A stretch of DNA of 23,179 nucleotides from a virus, in the IMG/VR virus record IMGVR_UViG_3300004192_000008, positions 1 through 23,179 of that record. One strand, 5' to 3'. Shown piece after piece: positions 9,659 through 23,179 of the stretch. The notes beneath the pieces were generated by a model. The model saw nothing but the letters and a program-made list of their open reading frames with translations, made no database searches and was not told the origin of the DNA. Positions within the stretch are counted from its first letter, which is position 1. The number at the start of each line of letters is the position of its first letter. The translations under genes were made by a program, and so were the position numbers.

Positions 9659-10314
9659 TGCGGCGCTACCAATTCATTACTCTCATTTACTGAATCAGGC
9701 GGGGCGGCAATAGGGGAGGTTGGTATTACACCGCCAGTGGCAGTTTCCACCTCACTTCCTAAAGTAAGTGCTGTGAGAGAGTTCTCTTGTCGGTCTGCCT
9801 CAGCAATATCAATACACAGATTTAGTTTTTCGGCGGTGGCGTCGCACTCGCTGGCGAAGGTGATAAGAAATTCACTAGCCGCTGGAGAAAGTTCGGCTGT
9901 TTTTTCTTGAGCTGGGCGGGGAGCGGTGCCAAGTGTGTTTGTATCACTGCCGCAGGTTGAACTTTGCTTGGTGGGGATGCGCAGCTGCTGAGCCCCAGAA
10001 GCCACACGGTTAATAAGATTACTAGTAGTAGTTTGTGCATCGTCGTTTCTCTTTTCAAATTGCTTAGTAAATTCATTTTGTTGTACTACTTTTTGATGCT
10101 CAACTTCACGAACTTGCGCTATTAATTCAAAGTTACGTTTTGCCAGTTTTGCCATTGATGCATTTTCAGCAGATACATTGCGATCATGTTCAGCTGATAC
10201 GCCAGTGTCATAAATGAAATAAAGCCCCGCTAATATCACAGCTGCTAAAAGTACATAAATTAATGTAGTTTTTAGCCAGCCTGGTATCACTAAGTCAGCT
10301 AACCATTTAGTCAT
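9655..10314 (-). CDS. Rz: Inner-membrane spanin, Rz-like
   Basis: A protein of 219 residues with an N-terminal transmembrane anchor (~14-35, LKTTLIYVLLAAVILAGLYF) followed by a long periplasmic coiled coil (~50-100, EVEHQKVVQQNEFTKQFEKR) and a low-complexity tail. The segment RVASGAQQLRIPTK followed by Cys is typical of Rz-like proteins. Together with the nested Rz1 it would fuse inner and outer membranes at the end of lysis. Its ATG overlaps the stop of the membrane protein upstream, and its stop overlaps the zinc-finger start. The tail after residue ~130 is longer than in lambda Rz (153 aa). Confidence 0.85.
   Translation of the reverse strand: MTKWLADLVIPGWLKTTLIYVLLAAVILAGLYFIYDTGVSAEHDRNVSAENASMAKLAKRNFELIAQVREVEHQKVVQQNEFTKQFEKRNDDAQTTTSNLINRVASGAQQLRIPTKQSSTCGSDTNTLGTAPRPAQEKTAELSPAASEFLITFASECDATAEKLNLCIDIAEADRQENSLTALTLGSEVETATGGVIPTSPIAAPPDSVNESNELVAPQ
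9822..10040 (-). CDS. Rz1: Outer-membrane spanin lipoprotein, Rz1-like, nested in Rz
   Basis: A protein of 72 residues read in another frame entirely within Rz. ATG 10040 follows AGAGAAACGACG. The signal sequence MHKLLLVILLTVWLLGLSSC carries a lipobox with lipidated Cys20. The mature part is short and Pro-rich (SPPSKVQPA, SPSPASATPPPKN), as in Rz1. An embedded reading frame is the classic arrangement for two-component spanins. An in-frame ATG 12 codons earlier would spoil the signal peptide, so it is rejected. Confidence 0.85.
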   Translation of the reverse strand: MHKLLLVILLTVWLLGLSSCASPPSKVQPAAVIQTHLAPLPAQLKKKQPNFLQRLVNFLSPSPASATPPPKN

Positions 10315-14685: not shown

Positions 14686-16434
14686 ATGAGCGCCGCGATG
14701 AACGAACGTTTAGTTGAAATTGCACAGCAAGCTAGGCTGGCACCATTTGGCACTAAAGAAGCGGTTTATACCGCAGCTTGCCAAGAGCTTGGTTTAACAC
14801 GTGCAACTTTATTACGCAAACTTAAAACGGTAGCCTATTCTGCACCGCGTAAGCAACGTGCAGATAAAGGTGAAACTAGCGTTTCTCATACGGATGCTCA
14901 AAAAATTGCCGCTTATATTCAAGCGCATACCCGCCAAAATGGTAAGCAGATTATGACGCTTGAGCATGGCTTAGAGGTATTGCGTAGCAATCGTGAAATT
15001 AATATTGATGGCATAGATGAAGAAACAGGCGAAGTTAGCTTGTTGGCGATATCAACTGTACGCCGCGCTTTGAAAACTTATGGTTTAGATGTTGAAACTT
15101 TAAACGCACCAGCGCCAGCGGTGCAGATGGCAAGCAAACATCCAAACCATTTATGGCAAATTGATGCTTCAATTTGTGTGCTGTATTACCTGCCAAAATC
15201 TGGGTTGCAAGTGATGGAAGAATCAGTGTTTGAAAAGAATAAACCTGAGAACTTTAAAAAAGCCGAATTGGATCGCGTATGGCGCTTTTTAGTAGTGGAC
15301 CATTGCAGCGGTTCTATTTATGTAGAGTATGTATTTGGCGGTGAGAACACAGCCAACCTGATTAGTATTTTCTTAAATGCGATACATCAGCGCGATGGCA
15401 AGCCGTTTTACGGCGTGCCTTTATGCCTGTATATGGATGCTGCCAGCGCCAACAAAAGCTCTACATTCCGCAATTTGTGCCGCAGCTTACAGATAGATTT
15501 AGCCCATCACTTACCCGGTAACTCACGCGCTACTGGTTCAGTTGAAAAGGCGCAGGATATTGTAGAACGTCAGTTTGAATCATGTCTAAAGTCTATTCAT
15601 ATTACTTCGATTGAGCAGTTAAACGAGGTAGCAAGACGCTGGATGGCAAAATTTAATGCTTACGCAATTCATAGCCGCCACCAAATGACGCGCTATGGTG
15701 CTTGGCTAAAAATCAAAGACGCTCAACTACGCATAGCGCCAGCGATTGAGTTGTGCAGAGAGCTGGCACGCAGCGCACCGATTGAGCGCACTGTGAGTAA
15801 TTACCTCACGATTGACTTTAAAGGCGCTGAATACGATGTGAGCCATATCCCTGAAATTCACGTGAATAAAAAGGTTTTAGTTTGCGTTAACCCATACCGC
15901 GCCAACGCTGTGCAAATTGTGCAAGTGGGTGAAGACGGACACGATAAATTCTTTGTGGTTGAGTCAGCTAAAAAAGGTGAGTTTGGCTATTACGAAACCG
16001 CTAATGTATATGGTGAAGGCTACGCCCGCCACGCTGAAACAACCGCAGAAAAACAAAGCAAACAGCTTGATCAGTTAATCACTGGTGAAACTAAAGAAGC
16101 AGACGTTCAAAAAGCCTTACGCAGTAAAAAATTACCATTCGATGGTCGCATTGACGCATTCAAACCGATGGATGACTTTATTGCACCAACCTTTATGCCA
16201 CGCCGTGGCACTGCGCTCAACGTGCCTGATTTAGCAATGCCTGAAATCAAACCACTTTCACTCATTGAAACCAAAATGCGCCTTCGCCCAATATTGGGTT
16301 ATGCCCTTACGGCTGAACAAAACACGATGCTCAAAGAGGCTTACCCAAATGGCGTGATGGAAGACCAATTGATTCAAGTAGTAGAAATGCTAGAGAACAA
16401 AGCTAAAGCGCCAAGATTGGTAGCTGTCGGCTAG
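14686..16434 (+). CDS. DDE transposase, MuA-type (integration and replicative transposition)
   Basis: A protein of 582 residues. It begins with a small HTH region (~20-50, LGLTRATLLRKLKTVA). The RNase-H-like core carries Asp160 (LWQIDAS), Asp251 (LYMDAAS) and Glu287 (TGSVEKAQ). The last two are separated by 35 residues, the DD35E spacing. A Mu-transposase beta-barrel-like part (~365-430, YLTIDFKGAEYDVSHIPEIH) follows, and the C-terminal region should bind the B ATPase. It is shorter than MuA (663 aa), mainly at the N-terminus, so an enhancer-binding domain like MuA's may be absent. ATG 14686 has a poor ribosome site; Met5 is an alternative. It is expected to bind the repeats at 22811-22889. 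Confidence 0.95.
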   Translation: MSAAMNERLVEIAQQARLAPFGTKEAVYTAACQELGLTRATLLRKLKTVAYSAPRKQRADKGETSVSHTDAQKIAAYIQAHTRQNGKQIMTLEHGLEVLRSNREINIDGIDEETGEVSLLAISTVRRALKTYGLDVETLNAPAPAVQMASKHPNHLWQIDASICVLYYLPKSGLQVMEESVFEKNKPENFKKAELDRVWRFLVVDHCSGSIYVEYVFGGENTANLISIFLNAIHQRDGKPFYGVPLCLYMDAASANKSSTFRNLCRSLQIDLAHHLPGNSRATGSVEKAQDIVERQFESCLKSIHITSIEQLNEVARRWMAKFNAYAIHSRHQMTRYGAWLKIKDAQLRIAPAIELCRELARSAPIERTVSNYLTIDFKGAEYDVSHIPEIHVNKKVLVCVNPYRANAVQIVQVGEDGHDKFFVVESAKKGEFGYYETANVYGEGYARHAETTAEKQSKQLDQLITGETKEADVQKALRSKKLPFDGRIDAFKPMDDFIAPTFMPRRGTALNVPDLAMPEIKPLSLIETKMRLRPILGYALTAEQNTMLKEAYPNGVMEDQLIQVVEMLENKAKAPRLVAVG

Positions 16435-16443
16435 AAAGAATTT

Positions 16444-16498
16444 CGCCCAATGTGCGCTAACACATTGGGCGAGGGTTGCACTGCAAAGTGCGTTTTTT
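16444..16498 (+). terminator. Two hairpins with T6 tract between transposase and ATPase genes
   Basis: CGCCCAATGTG-CGCTAA-CACATTGGGCG (16444-16471) is a perfect 11-bp stem. It is followed by GCACT-GCAA-AGTGC (16478-16491), then G and T6 (16493-16498), an intrinsic-terminator layout. Termination here would reduce B relative to A, or act as an attenuator within the early operon. Confidence 0.7.
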
Positions 16499-16519
16499 AA
16501 ACAAGCGAGGTAAGTATAA

Positions 16520-16579
16520 ATGAAAAATTTAACGAGCACAAAACTCGGAGGCGAATATGTCAGCGCTTCTTCAATTTAA
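16520..16579 (+). CDS. Leader ORF (19 aa) overlapping the B-type ATPase start
   Basis: ATG 16520 has a GAGG 9 nt upstream (16507-16510) and encodes MKNLTSTKLGGEYVSASSI before TAA at 16577-16579. The frame runs over the Shine-Dalgarno (16546-16551) and start codon (16557) of the ATPase gene. It may control ATPase translation by coupling or occlusion, as upstream frames do in antisense-controlled phage operons. Its translation is not proven. Confidence 0.45.
   Translation: MKNLTSTKLGGEYVSASSI
16542..16551 (+). promoter_or_regulatory. ATPase gene Shine-Dalgarno, complementary to downstream RNA element
   Basis: AACTCGGAGG includes the ribosome site (CGGAGG, 5 nt from ATG 16557). It is the exact reverse complement of 20437-20446, the loop region of the structured RNA between gam and the HU gene. 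This is a candidate antisense target. Confidence 0.5.
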
Positions 16580-17783
16580 TGCAGCGGGATACGCCTATAT
16601 GCCAATCAAACTAAAAGCAATCTTAATGCGCTATGGCATTAAACAAAACGACTGGTGCAAGGCAGTGATTCAAAGTAGTGGCATGTCATTAAGCCTTAGT
16701 GCTGGTGCGCAAGTCATTAACTGGGATACATGGCCTAAAGCTACACCAAAGGCATCTATTGTCGCTCAAACAGAAACCTACTTGCGCAGTGTTGGCGTGC
16801 CTGAAGCTGAAATTTCACTGGCTTGGAATGTAGATGAAACAGACGGCCTACGCAATGGACACCCCGCAGGTGTTCATGTAGGCCAATACCCACGCGCAGT
16901 AATAGAAATTGACCCAATTGGAGAACCTGAAATGCTTTCACCCAACGCAAAAAAACATTTTTCAATATTTCGCGATCCATTTAAAGATGAAGTGAACTCT
17001 GCAGATGATGTTTACACAAGTCCTGACATTCGCTACATCCGTGAGGCAATGTTTACCACTGCAAAACATGGTGGCTTGCTTGCAGTAGTTGGTGAATCTG
17101 GTGGTGGTAAAAGTGTATTACGCCGCGATTTAATCGAACGAATTAATCGCGATAAAGAGCAGATTGTGATTATTTTCCCAAGAACGATTGATAAGTCAAA
17201 TTTGAATGCGGGCAGTATTTGTGAGGCGATTATAAAAGATTTGCAGCCTGAATCTAAGCTCCCACAAAGTTTAGAAAGCAAAGCACGTATCGTTGAAAAA
17301 ATACTTAAGGCAAGTGCTGAAGTCGGCACTAAGCATGTATTAGTTATTGAAGAGGCTCACGACATTACCATTCAATGCATGAAGTATTTAAAACGTTTTT
17401 GGGAGCTAGAAGATGGCTTTAAAAAACTGCTCTCAATCGTGCTAATTGGTCAGCCTGAATTAATGGATAAGTTAAATGAGGCAAAAAATCCTAATGCGCG
17501 TGAATTCATTCGTCGCTGTGAAGTTGCACAGCTGGTGCCACTGGATCGTAACCTTGAAGATTACCTAGATTTCAAGTTTGGCCGAATCGGCGTTGACCTA
17601 AATAAAGTGTTTGAAAATAATGCTTTTGAGGCCATTCGTAGACGCCTAACAAAGAGTGAAAACGGCCGTGTGATCTCACACCTAAACCCATTGATGGTGA
17701 ATAACTTAGTCACTAAAGCACTCAATCTTTGCGCTGAAATTGGTGAAGACAAACTCAGTGCTGAAGTCATTAGTAAACTTTAG
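16557..17783 (+). CDS. AAA+ target-selection ATPase, MuB-type
   Basis: A protein of 408 residues. An N-terminal HTH-like part (~17-62, KLKAILMRYGIKQNDWCKAV) leads to a FSIFRDPFKDEV segment as in ExeA-type AAA ATPases. Walker A is GESGGGKS (179-186) and Walker B is VLVIEEAH (261-268), followed by LLSIVLIGQPELMDKL and an arginine-rich FIRRCEV element. In transposition this ATPase coats target DNA, attracts the transposase-DNA complex and gives target immunity. At 408 aa it is larger than MuB (312 aa). It is separated from the transposase by the terminator-like hairpins and leader ORF, so its expression is probably controlled separately. Confidence 0.92.
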   Translation: MSALLQFNAAGYAYMPIKLKAILMRYGIKQNDWCKAVIQSSGMSLSLSAGAQVINWDTWPKATPKASIVAQTETYLRSVGVPEAEISLAWNVDETDGLRNGHPAGVHVGQYPRAVIEIDPIGEPEMLSPNAKKHFSIFRDPFKDEVNSADDVYTSPDIRYIREAMFTTAKHGGLLAVVGESGGGKSVLRRDLIERINRDKEQIVIIFPRTIDKSNLNAGSICEAIIKDLQPESKLPQSLESKARIVEKILKASAEVGTKHVLVIEEAHDITIQCMKYLKRFWELEDGFKKLLSIVLIGQPELMDKLNEAKNPNAREFIRRCEVAQLVPLDRNLEDYLDFKFGRIGVDLNKVFENNAFEAIRRRLTKSENGRVISHLNPLMVNNLVTKALNLCAEIGEDKLSAEVISKL

Positions 17784-19853: not shown

Positions 19854-20375
19854 ATGACACCACTTATTAATATAGAACAAAAAGCCAAGCACTTTAGTAA
19901 GCGCCGTGCAGTTTTAGTACAACGAGTAATGATACTTAACGCTGCAATTGATCAGTTAAAACGCAAGCACTTGGCTGACATTAAAGAATCAGTAAATGAA
20001 ACATCTGAGGCACTAGCAGAGCTTAATTCTCTATTAGAAAAATCACCCAACCTATTTGTGAAACCTCGCACCATTGTTTTTCACGGCATAAAAGTTGGTT
20101 TCCAAAAGCAAAAAGGCAAGATTGAAATTAAAGATGAAGCCAAGACTATTTTACTCATCAGAAAACAGTTACCTGAACAGGCTGATTTATTAATCTCAAC
20201 CAAAGAATCTGTAAGCAAAGATGCACTGGCTAATGTAGCTGTGGCAGAACTAAAACGCATTGGTTGCAATGTGATTGCTGACACTGATGTAGTCGTCATC
20301 AAACCTACAGATAGTGAAGTAGATAAATTAGTAACTGCACTATTAAAAGAAGTGACTGAAGAAGTAACAAATTAA
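19854..20375 (+). CDS. gam: Gam-like host-nuclease inhibitor / DNA-end-binding protein
   Basis: A protein of 173 residues. The N-terminal coiled coil (~10-60) is followed by KPRTIVFHGIKVGFQKQKGK, the recognisable Gam block, then KTILLIRKQLPEQADLLIST and a KESVSKDALANVAVAELKRI segment with a closing GCNVIADTDVVVIKP. Mu Gam is a Ku-like protein that coats linear DNA ends and protects them from RecBCD. Length and order of elements agree with the family. AGGAGAAATC precedes the start. The RNA element at 20381-20470 follows directly. Confidence 0.9.
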   Translation: MTPLINIEQKAKHFSKRRAVLVQRVMILNAAIDQLKRKHLADIKESVNETSEALAELNSLLEKSPNLFVKPRTIVFHGIKVGFQKQKGKIEIKDEAKTILLIRKQLPEQADLLISTKESVSKDALANVAVAELKRIGCNVIADTDVVVIKPTDSEVDKLVTALLKEVTEEVTN

Positions 20376-20380
20376 TCGTT

Positions 20381-20470
20381 GACTACCCAAGCTGTGAGTG
20401 GGGCTAATAACCGCAGCAGACTGTGATGGTGTTACTCCTCCGAGTTACCCTTTCCACCAGGCGCAGTCGA
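20381..20470 (+). ncRNA. Two-hairpin structured RNA, C4-antisense-like candidate
   Basis: Hairpin 1 pairs GCTGTG (20391-20396) with CGCAGC (20412-20417) around AGTGGGGCTAATAAC. Hairpin 2 pairs GACTGTG (20419-20425) with CGCAGTC (20462-20468), then TGGTG (20427-20431) with CACCA (20455-20459), topped by ACTC-CTCC-GAGT (20434-20445). Base composition is GC-richer than the surroundings. The compact double-hairpin resembles C4 antisense RNAs of P1/P7 and CI RNA of P4. Those act by pairing over about 9-10 nt with a ribosome site. Here CCTCCGAGTT (20437-20446) is complementary to the ATPase ribosome site at 16542-16551. It lies in a read-through position between gam and the HU gene, so processing from the early transcript is likely. 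Confidence 0.55.
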
Positions 20471-20505
20471 TTTACCTTTTTTATACTTATATATAGGAGC
20501 TTCAA

Positions 20506-20787
20506 ATGAATCAAGCAGACTTAGTAGCAGCAATCGCAACAAGCAATAATCACCAAGGTGTTTCAAAAACTTCAATTAAATTTGTATTAGATCAATTAGG
20601 TGAGGTTACTCAAAAAACTTTAAAAGCTGGCGGCGATATCGCTTTACCAGGCATTGGTAAATTCTCAGTAAAAAACCGTGCAGCACGTATTGGTAAAAAT
20701 CCACGCACTGGTGAAGAGCTTCAAATTGCAGCAAAAGTGGTACCGCATTTTAGTGCTGCTAAAGCGCTTAAGGATGCAGTAGTTTAA
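20506..20787 (+). CDS. HU-like histone-like DNA-binding protein
   Basis: A protein of 93 residues, HU/IHF size. Helical N-terminal half (MNQADLVAAIATSNNHQGVS); the arm region GKFSVKNRAARIGKNPRTGE (51-70) contains the DNA-intercalating Pro66, and the C-terminal AAKVVPHFSAAKALKD is characteristic. HU and IHF bend DNA during Mu transposition and enhancer binding, so a phage-coded copy next to gam suggests supply of its own architectural factor. TATAGGAGC precedes the start. A hairpin at 20805-20828 follows. Confidence 0.93.
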   Translation: MNQADLVAAIATSNNHQGVSKTSIKFVLDQLGEVTQKTLKAGGDIALPGIGKFSVKNRAARIGKNPRTGEELQIAAKVVPHFSAAKALKDAVV

Positions 20788-20804
20788 GACTGAAACTCTC
20801 ATTT

Positions 20805-20828
20805 ATAGCCCGTTAACAAATGGGCTAT
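20805..20828 (+). terminator. Hairpin after the HU-like gene
   Basis: ATAGCCCGTT-AACA-AATGGGCTAT forms a 10-bp stem with one G-U pair, 18 bases after the HU stop. No T tract follows directly, so termination is uncertain. It may instead stabilise the upstream RNA. A 150-base non-coding gap to the next gene suggests a unit boundary. Confidence 0.45.
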
Positions 20829-20936
20829 GGAAGATGGTTTTAATCAGGAATCTAAAGTGGGAATTTTGTTATTTTTAGTTTTTTTATGGGCAATTTTTGA
20901 AGGGCACCCTTGGGTTGCTCTCTTCATTTTTATTGG

Positions 20937-22547: not shown

Positions 22548-22760
22548 ATGACTGAATATCTATTAATTGGCGGTGCTGGTAATGGTCAAAAGCTAACCAT
22601 TAAGTTTGGTGTAAGTATCTTGTATAGATGCCCTGACACTGGAATAGATTATCGCTATAAGCTAGGCTCTTACTCTTATTTGGATCGTCAATTTAATGTT
22701 GGCATTTTCGATGTAACAGAATCTGAAATTATTGCTGCTATTCGTAAGTTCGCAATGTAA
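22548..22760 (+). CDS. Unknown small protein, 70 aa
   Basis: Last gene before the right end. Beta-strand-like segments (EYLLIGGAGNGQKLTIKFGV, then ILYRCPDTGIDYRYKLGSYS) with a C-terminal helix (ESEIIAAIRKFAM). No family and no strong ribosome site seen. Spacing (nine bases) and strand agree with the early operon. Confidence 0.5.
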   Translation: MTEYLLIGGAGNGQKLTIKFGVSILYRCPDTGIDYRYKLGSYSYLDRQFNVGIFDVTESEIIAAIRKFAM

Positions 22761-22810
22761 TTTTTGAGTCCTTTTTTATTTGCGTATATTGCAATAGTCT
22801 TTCATTTTAA

Positions 22811-22889
22811 CTTCCCGTCTTATCCCAGTTAGTTTCGTTTCTTCCCACTTATCTCAATCTTAGTTATATATTTATCTCAGTTCTCATCA
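22811..22889. repeat. Prophage right end with transposase-site-like repeats
   Basis: Three copies of one motif: CTTATCCCAGTT (22819-22830), CTTATCTCAATC (22848-22859) and TTTATCTCAGTT (22871-22882). The first two are each preceded by CTTCCC (22811 and 22841). The innermost-to-end spacing puts the last copy 7-18 bp from the terminus, as for end-type transposase sites in Mu. The end itself reads CTCATCA, CA being the standard 3' end. The region from 22761 to 22810 is AT-rich and shows no gene. Confidence 0.75.
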
Positions 22890-22949
22890 GACAGCAAAGC
22901 TCGTGCTACTCATTAACAAGCAAACGATTACTAATAATCTTTTCAACAT
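22887..22949 (-). pseudogene. Host gene for an exported protein, cut by the prophage after its signal peptide
   Basis: AAAAGGAGATTGATCGT precedes ATG 22949. The frame reads MLKRLLVIVCLLMSSTSFAV, a complete Sec signal peptide with a cleavage site after SFA. It then meets TGA at 22889-22887, which is the first three bases of the phage end. The remainder of the gene must lie beyond the unseen left end of the prophage. Its identity is unknown. It lies 63 bases downstream of cdsA on the same strand. Confidence 0.7.
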
Positions 22950-23012
22950 ACGATCAATCTCCTTTTACATGATGCAATTTTTAAAGTTTGCCATCTAACA
23001 ACATTCGCCATA

Positions 23013-23179
23013 TCAATAGTGCAGATAATACACAAAATGAAAAAACAATGGCGCGGTATAGGTCAGGCTATCAACACGGTCAAGAATACCACCGTGACCT
23101 GGAATCAGATTACCTGTGTCTTTGATGCCCAAGTCACGCTTGACCGCTGAAATACTCACATCACCCACAAAACCAGCCA
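23013..23179 (-). CDS. cdsA: Phosphatidate cytidylyltransferase, C-terminal part (runs off window)
   Basis: The last 54 complete codons are visible. [20 protein letters not shown] followed by [10 protein letters not shown] is the CDP-diglyceride synthase signature (S-x-x-K-R-x4-K-D-x-G-x2-x-P-x-H-G-G-x-x-D-R-x-D). The end is a hydrophobic helix ([15 protein letters not shown]). The enzyme makes CDP-diacylglycerol from phosphatidic acid and CTP in the inner membrane. It is host chromosomal DNA and marks the outer side of the prophage junction. Confidence 0.95.

Follow-up and report, generated by a model that had tools for sequence, protein, structure and literature searches.

A conserved pseudoknot and hairpin RNA of tailed phages in the gam-HU gap of a Mu-like prophage

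The gap between the gam and HU genes of a Mu-like transposable prophage encodes an RNA that belongs to a widespread and as yet unnamed family in tailed phages. In this RNA, a pseudoknot is joined by a 1-nt linker to an interrupted hairpin whose apical loop is free. The window, as the term is used below, is the whole stretch of DNA analyzed, a 23,179-base virus record from IMG/VR. The structure has the topology of the put RNA of phage HK022, is supported by covariation, and recurs in dozens of unrelated phages, in six of them directly before terminase genes. By analogy with put, the element may act in cis as an antiterminator. Whatever its action, it represents a conserved phage RNA family.

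Architecture of the element and the surrounding prophage

The gene upstream of the element (19854 to 20375, plus strand) resembles Mu gam (PF07352; E = 2.7e-6, slightly below the curated cut-off), and 10 nt separate its stop codon from the first strand of the element. The downstream gene (20506 to 20787, plus strand) encodes an HU-family protein (Pfam Bac_DNA_binding; E = 1.3e-27), which places the gam-HU gap at 20376 to 20505. The prophage further carries a transposase gene with an rve domain (14686 to 16434), a MuB-type AAA ATPase gene (16557 to 17783), and, 3' of HU, GemA and Mor genes. At its right end (22760 to 23179), homology to the related locus L015 stops at about position 22884, after short repeats (TTATCTCA), and the DNA beyond is that of the host, where the minus strand carries the C terminus of a CdsA-like gene (CTP_transf_1). 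The record therefore represents an integrated prophage with its right junction. Two other hairpins were observed in the window: a terminator-like one with a T-run between the transposase and ATPase genes (16477 to 16500), which has counterparts in L014 and L015, and one directly 3' of the HU gene (20802 to 20831; 12087 to 12116 in L015), which is conserved with a pair change and has a weak T tail. Another gap 3' of a gam gene (L012, 4369 to 4500) is also G+C-rich and structured-looking and is devoid of the pseudoknot motif.

The 5' half of the element is a covarying H-type pseudoknot, in which helices S1 and S2 are interleaved. On the plus strand of the window, the 5' strand of S1 (CCC, 20386 to 20388) is followed by an AA linker forming loop 1 (20389 to 20390), the 5' strand of S2 (GCUGUG, 20391 to 20396), the trinucleotide AGU (20397 to 20399), the 3' strand of S1 (GGG, 20400 to 20402), an A-rich loop 3 ending in AAUAAC(C) (20403 to 20411), and the 3' strand of S2 (CGCAGC, 20412 to 20417). 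The AA linker is invariant in the family, as are AGU and the AACC of loop 3, even if the latter two are left free in the search pattern. A single A (20418; alignments A2 and A3) links the pseudoknot to the hairpin P3 (20419 to 20468), which comprises 7 bp (20419 to 20425 with 20462 to 20468), an internal loop of A opposite GG (20426 and 20460 to 20461), 5 bp (20427 to 20431 with 20455 to 20459), and a variable apical loop. A first-pass annotation had described the gap as a 6-bp hairpin followed by one of 7+5+4 bp, and both are borne out by the fold; the first of them is S2, one helix of the conserved pseudoknot, which had been overlooked. The folding energy of the gap (−30 kcal/mol) is no better than that of shuffled sequences (−28.9 kcal/mol; z = −0.3), so that energy alone is no evidence for the element.

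Covariation, distribution, and gene context of the family

Successive scans of viral contigs with loose patterns returned 39, 100, at least 120, and again at least 120 stretches, and among the fetched loci at least 86 distinct phage members were counted, sharing the motif NNNC-AAG-N-CGUG-AGU-GNNN-..AACC-NCGNC-AG. The CCC/GGG helix S1 of the window is replaced in other phages by GGAC/GUCC, CCGC/GCGG, ACUC/GAGU, or GCC/GGC. Compensatory changes were found in S1, S2, and P3, with 91 to 96% pairing compared to 29 to 50% in slid controls; in an alignment of 13 sequences, 91.5% of the cells pair, compared to 78% after shuffling and 36 to 49% after sliding. As a safeguard against circularity, a dereplicated set was drawn from a scan that left loop 3 free and, apart from a fixed first C-G pair, put no pairing constraint on S1. 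Pairs 2 and 3 of S1 and pair 14-38 of S2 form in all 33 sequences of this set that carry AACC, where shuffling leads to an expectation of about 15 to 18, and each of these pairs is represented by three to five pair types. The 18 sequences without AACC from the same scan behave like chance matches. G-U pairs are common in S2, which fits a structure at the RNA level.

The hairpin is shared as well. The exact P3 architecture (1-nt linker, 7 bp, internal loop of the A x GG type, 5 bp, and variable loop) is present in 31 of 82 members (0.2 expected by shuffling), and a stem of at least 6 bp occupies the P3 position in 72 of the 82 (15 expected). Among the five closest sequences, compensatory changes affect four pairs of P3. 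One locus (L036, 3547 to 3609) has a pseudoknot variant with an extra hairpin inside loop 3.

In the window and 16 member loci (17 sources in total), no Rfam family matches the element, and the only hits above the curated cut-offs are tRNAs outside the element in the 16 loci. The pattern is absent from 369 gammaproteobacterial genomes, and a single clear member (L072) was detected in 399 genomes of the phylum. Searches of a phage collection with four members yielded no convincing match in named phages, and no paper describing the pseudoknot motif was found in a literature search.

The members, which stem mostly from metagenomic viral contigs with mechanical gene and terminator calls, are intergenic and lie on the coding strand. 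A long reading frame ends within 60 nt upstream in 51 of 86 members (control, 17%), mostly 4 to 14 nt before S1. The genes downstream are diverse and include those for HU, helicase, terminase, tape measure, tail completion, and GemA. A terminase gene lies a short distance downstream in six unrelated phages (small subunits of five PHROG families and one large subunit). One member (L040, 1338 to 1377) is located directly 3' of a bAvd-like gene (PF22296), which belongs to a family associated with diversity-generating retroelements.

A marine lineage (L081, L090, L118, L134, and relatives) displays the order HNH gene, pseudoknot RNA, strong terminator, and helicase gene. The terminator (−15 to −20 kcal/mol) begins about 55 to 65 nt after the 3' strand of S2, and the helicase start follows at about 110 to 124 nt. 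As terminator and start codon are so close, there is no room for a promoter between them, and read-through is needed for helicase expression. The loop of this terminator, UACCUCUCUC, is conserved. Terminators near the 3' side of P3 were also found in L034, L066, L107, and L127; the excess right behind P3 is mainly that of one lineage, and no overall enrichment was seen over 3 kb downstream (0.24 versus 0.22 terminators per kb).

Possible modes of action

Sense orientation and tight spacing suggest that the element would be made within a longer transcript, between two successive genes. On the model of HK022 put, the folded nascent RNA would stay on the elongating RNA polymerase, which would then read through pauses and terminators that lie farther along the early or late operon. 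In the window, the element would thus help the polymerase to transcribe HU, GemA, and Mor and to proceed towards the end of the phage. Antitermination in cis would account for the location on the sense strand, the variety of genes downstream, the position before terminase genes, the adjacent terminators, and the free apical loop, and we tentatively favor this put-like action, giving it a nearly even chance. It is possible, with the balance leaning modestly against it, that the family as a whole constitutes a class of RNA-only processive antiterminators, widespread in tailed phages but so far undescribed, which would need no N or Q protein and would be placed at the head of late operons as well as within early ones. 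If so, many phages would rely on a nascent RNA rather than on an antiterminator protein to drive long operons, and the class would offer a testable answer to the question of how phages that lack a recognizable N or Q turn on their late genes.

A different role would be that of a stand-alone small RNA, originating at the 3' end of the preceding gene or terminated at the terminator that follows, and binding ribosome sites of other phage or host genes through its variable P3 loop. Several observations are consistent with it: the apical loop varies fast on a fixed scaffold and often contains CUCC, an anti-Shine-Dalgarno-like run, several loci have a terminator right behind P3, and the loop in the window includes a 10-nt match to the ribosome site of the MuB-type (B) gene. 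However, this match is not maintained in the closest relatives, P3 is not directly followed by a terminator in the window, and the gene that comes next in the helicase lineage would have no promoter. A small RNA is, in our view, unlikely.

Rather improbable, too, is a cis-acting leader of the next gene, in which the P3 loop would mask the Shine-Dalgarno sequence or the pseudoknot would sense a ligand or protein. The element lies about 60 to 150 nt before the next start, and the loop often has CUCC while many of the next genes have GGAG. However, the pairing of a loop with its own downstream site is no better than that of foreign loops (P = 0.08, with GC content as a confounder), the site is constant in the helicase lineage while the loops vary, and the downstream genes are too diverse for one ligand. 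Masking had been suspected from L002 and L029, where a UUUUCC loop is accompanied by a GGAAAG site, and was rejected on the basis of the own-versus-foreign loop comparison and the helicase lineage.

The first-pass annotation had interpreted the gap as a C4-like antisense RNA that represses the MuB-type ATPase. The complementarity on which it relied is exact: CCTCCGAGTT (20437 to 20446, plus strand) is the reverse complement of AACTCGGAGG (16542 to 16551, plus strand) in the Shine-Dalgarno region of the ATPase gene. The second-best of 19 ribosome sites matches the element over 7 nt, and shuffling yields a 10-nt match to any of the 19 in 1% of cases for the element and in 0.3% for the loop; the complement is unusual, but it was chosen after the fact. 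It lies in the apical loop and its short stem, and no part of the RNA is less conserved than this loop. In L014 and L015, the ATPase is 87 to 90% identical to that of the window and the element 85 to 89% identical at the nucleotide level (the HU genes are less similar, with 64 to 66% at the protein level), but the 10-nt complement is reduced to 5 nt (L014) and 4 nt (L015) when each element is compared with its own B ribosome site, and the loop of the window matches the B ribosome sites of these two loci over 5 nt. The apical loops of the next relatives, L002 and L029, lack CUCC. Furthermore, a 181-nt stretch gave no match to the Rfam C4 model (RF01695) even at E ≤ 10, genuine C4 RNAs have a different fold with a long stem around two hairpins, and most family members reside in phages with a non-Mu-like gene neighborhood. 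Because there is no C4 match, the fold differs, and the complement decays while the element stays conserved, the antisense interpretation fails and is very improbable. What stands is that the gap encodes a structured phage RNA, with a covarying pseudoknot; its proposed C4 likeness and ATPase target do not. Finally, a DNA-level recombination or protein-binding site is hardly credible despite the abundance of palindromic DNA in phages, given the G-U pairs in S2 and two helices that interleave as in RNA pseudoknots, and chance resemblance is excluded by the uniform pairing of the 33 AACC sequences.

Comparison with known phage RNAs

Like the element, STAXI (RF01728) is a pseudoknot associated with phages and mobile elements (PMC2864571). 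STAXI, however, repeats its pseudoknot two to three times, whereas the family has a single one; membership was rejected, as the STAXI model matched neither in the window nor in the 16 loci and a genome search gave no match. C4 antisense RNA (RF01695; P1/P7 c4) is likewise a phage RNA located between genes, with variable loops, and is processed by RNase P to an RNA of about 77 nt (PMC5320573). In contrast to the pseudoknot and hairpin of the element, a true C4 RNA found in a bacterial genome (L161) is a 17-bp stem enclosing two hairpins, the C4 model contains no pseudoknot, and the target pairing of the element is conserved in neither L014 nor L015. A tRNA-like reading of P3 as an RNase P substrate (7+5 bp, followed by a purine or ACC) was suggestive only and was dropped; ACC is not general and is missing in the window.

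Most documented cases of RNA-only antitermination are from HK022 and a small number of lambdoid relatives. H-type pseudoknots with a short loop 1 and an A-rich loop 3 are common, and the likeness to put may consequently be generic. The put RNA of HK022 (putL and putR) is also annotated in HK75 and HK639, and searches with putL and putR recovered essentially only lambdoid relatives. Cryo-electron microscopy has shown put to consist of a 5' duplex (3-7/15-19), a minor-groove third strand (21-25), AA, a second helix, one base, and an interrupted stem II, and as a nascent RNA it resides on the zinc-binding domain of the polymerase β' subunit and suppresses pauses and terminators (PMC9378689). This order was also read from the sequences of HK022, CobraSix, HK639, PdC23, S9-5, phiEt88, and UPF_BP1. 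A lone descriptor match at 9884, in antisense orientation to the late genes, was rejected as an unconvincing second put-like copy in the window.

Several features set the family apart from put. The AGU between S2 and the 3' strand of S1 has no counterpart in put, S2 has 6 bp instead of 5 bp, and the linker is an A where put has the critical G35; at the base of S2, an A opposite an A is possible in place of the purine mismatch A9-G35. The stem II core GGCGGG..GGCAAU is missing from the family, put lies near early promoters whereas the family element is located within or at the head of operons, and the family covariance model (R1) does not detect HK022 put. As the model misses put, put-specific bases differ, and simple pseudoknots look alike, the proposed antiterminator is described as put-like only. 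Nevertheless, the order S1, AA, S2, S1', A-rich loop 3, S2', one nucleotide, and interrupted stem II is shared by the element. Both RNAs measure about 70 to 85 nt and lie on the sense strand of phage operons, S1 varies by compensation in known puts as well, and the loop 3 sequence UAAACC of put is close to the (U)AAAACC of the family. The element is put-like in its architecture and is not termed a put.
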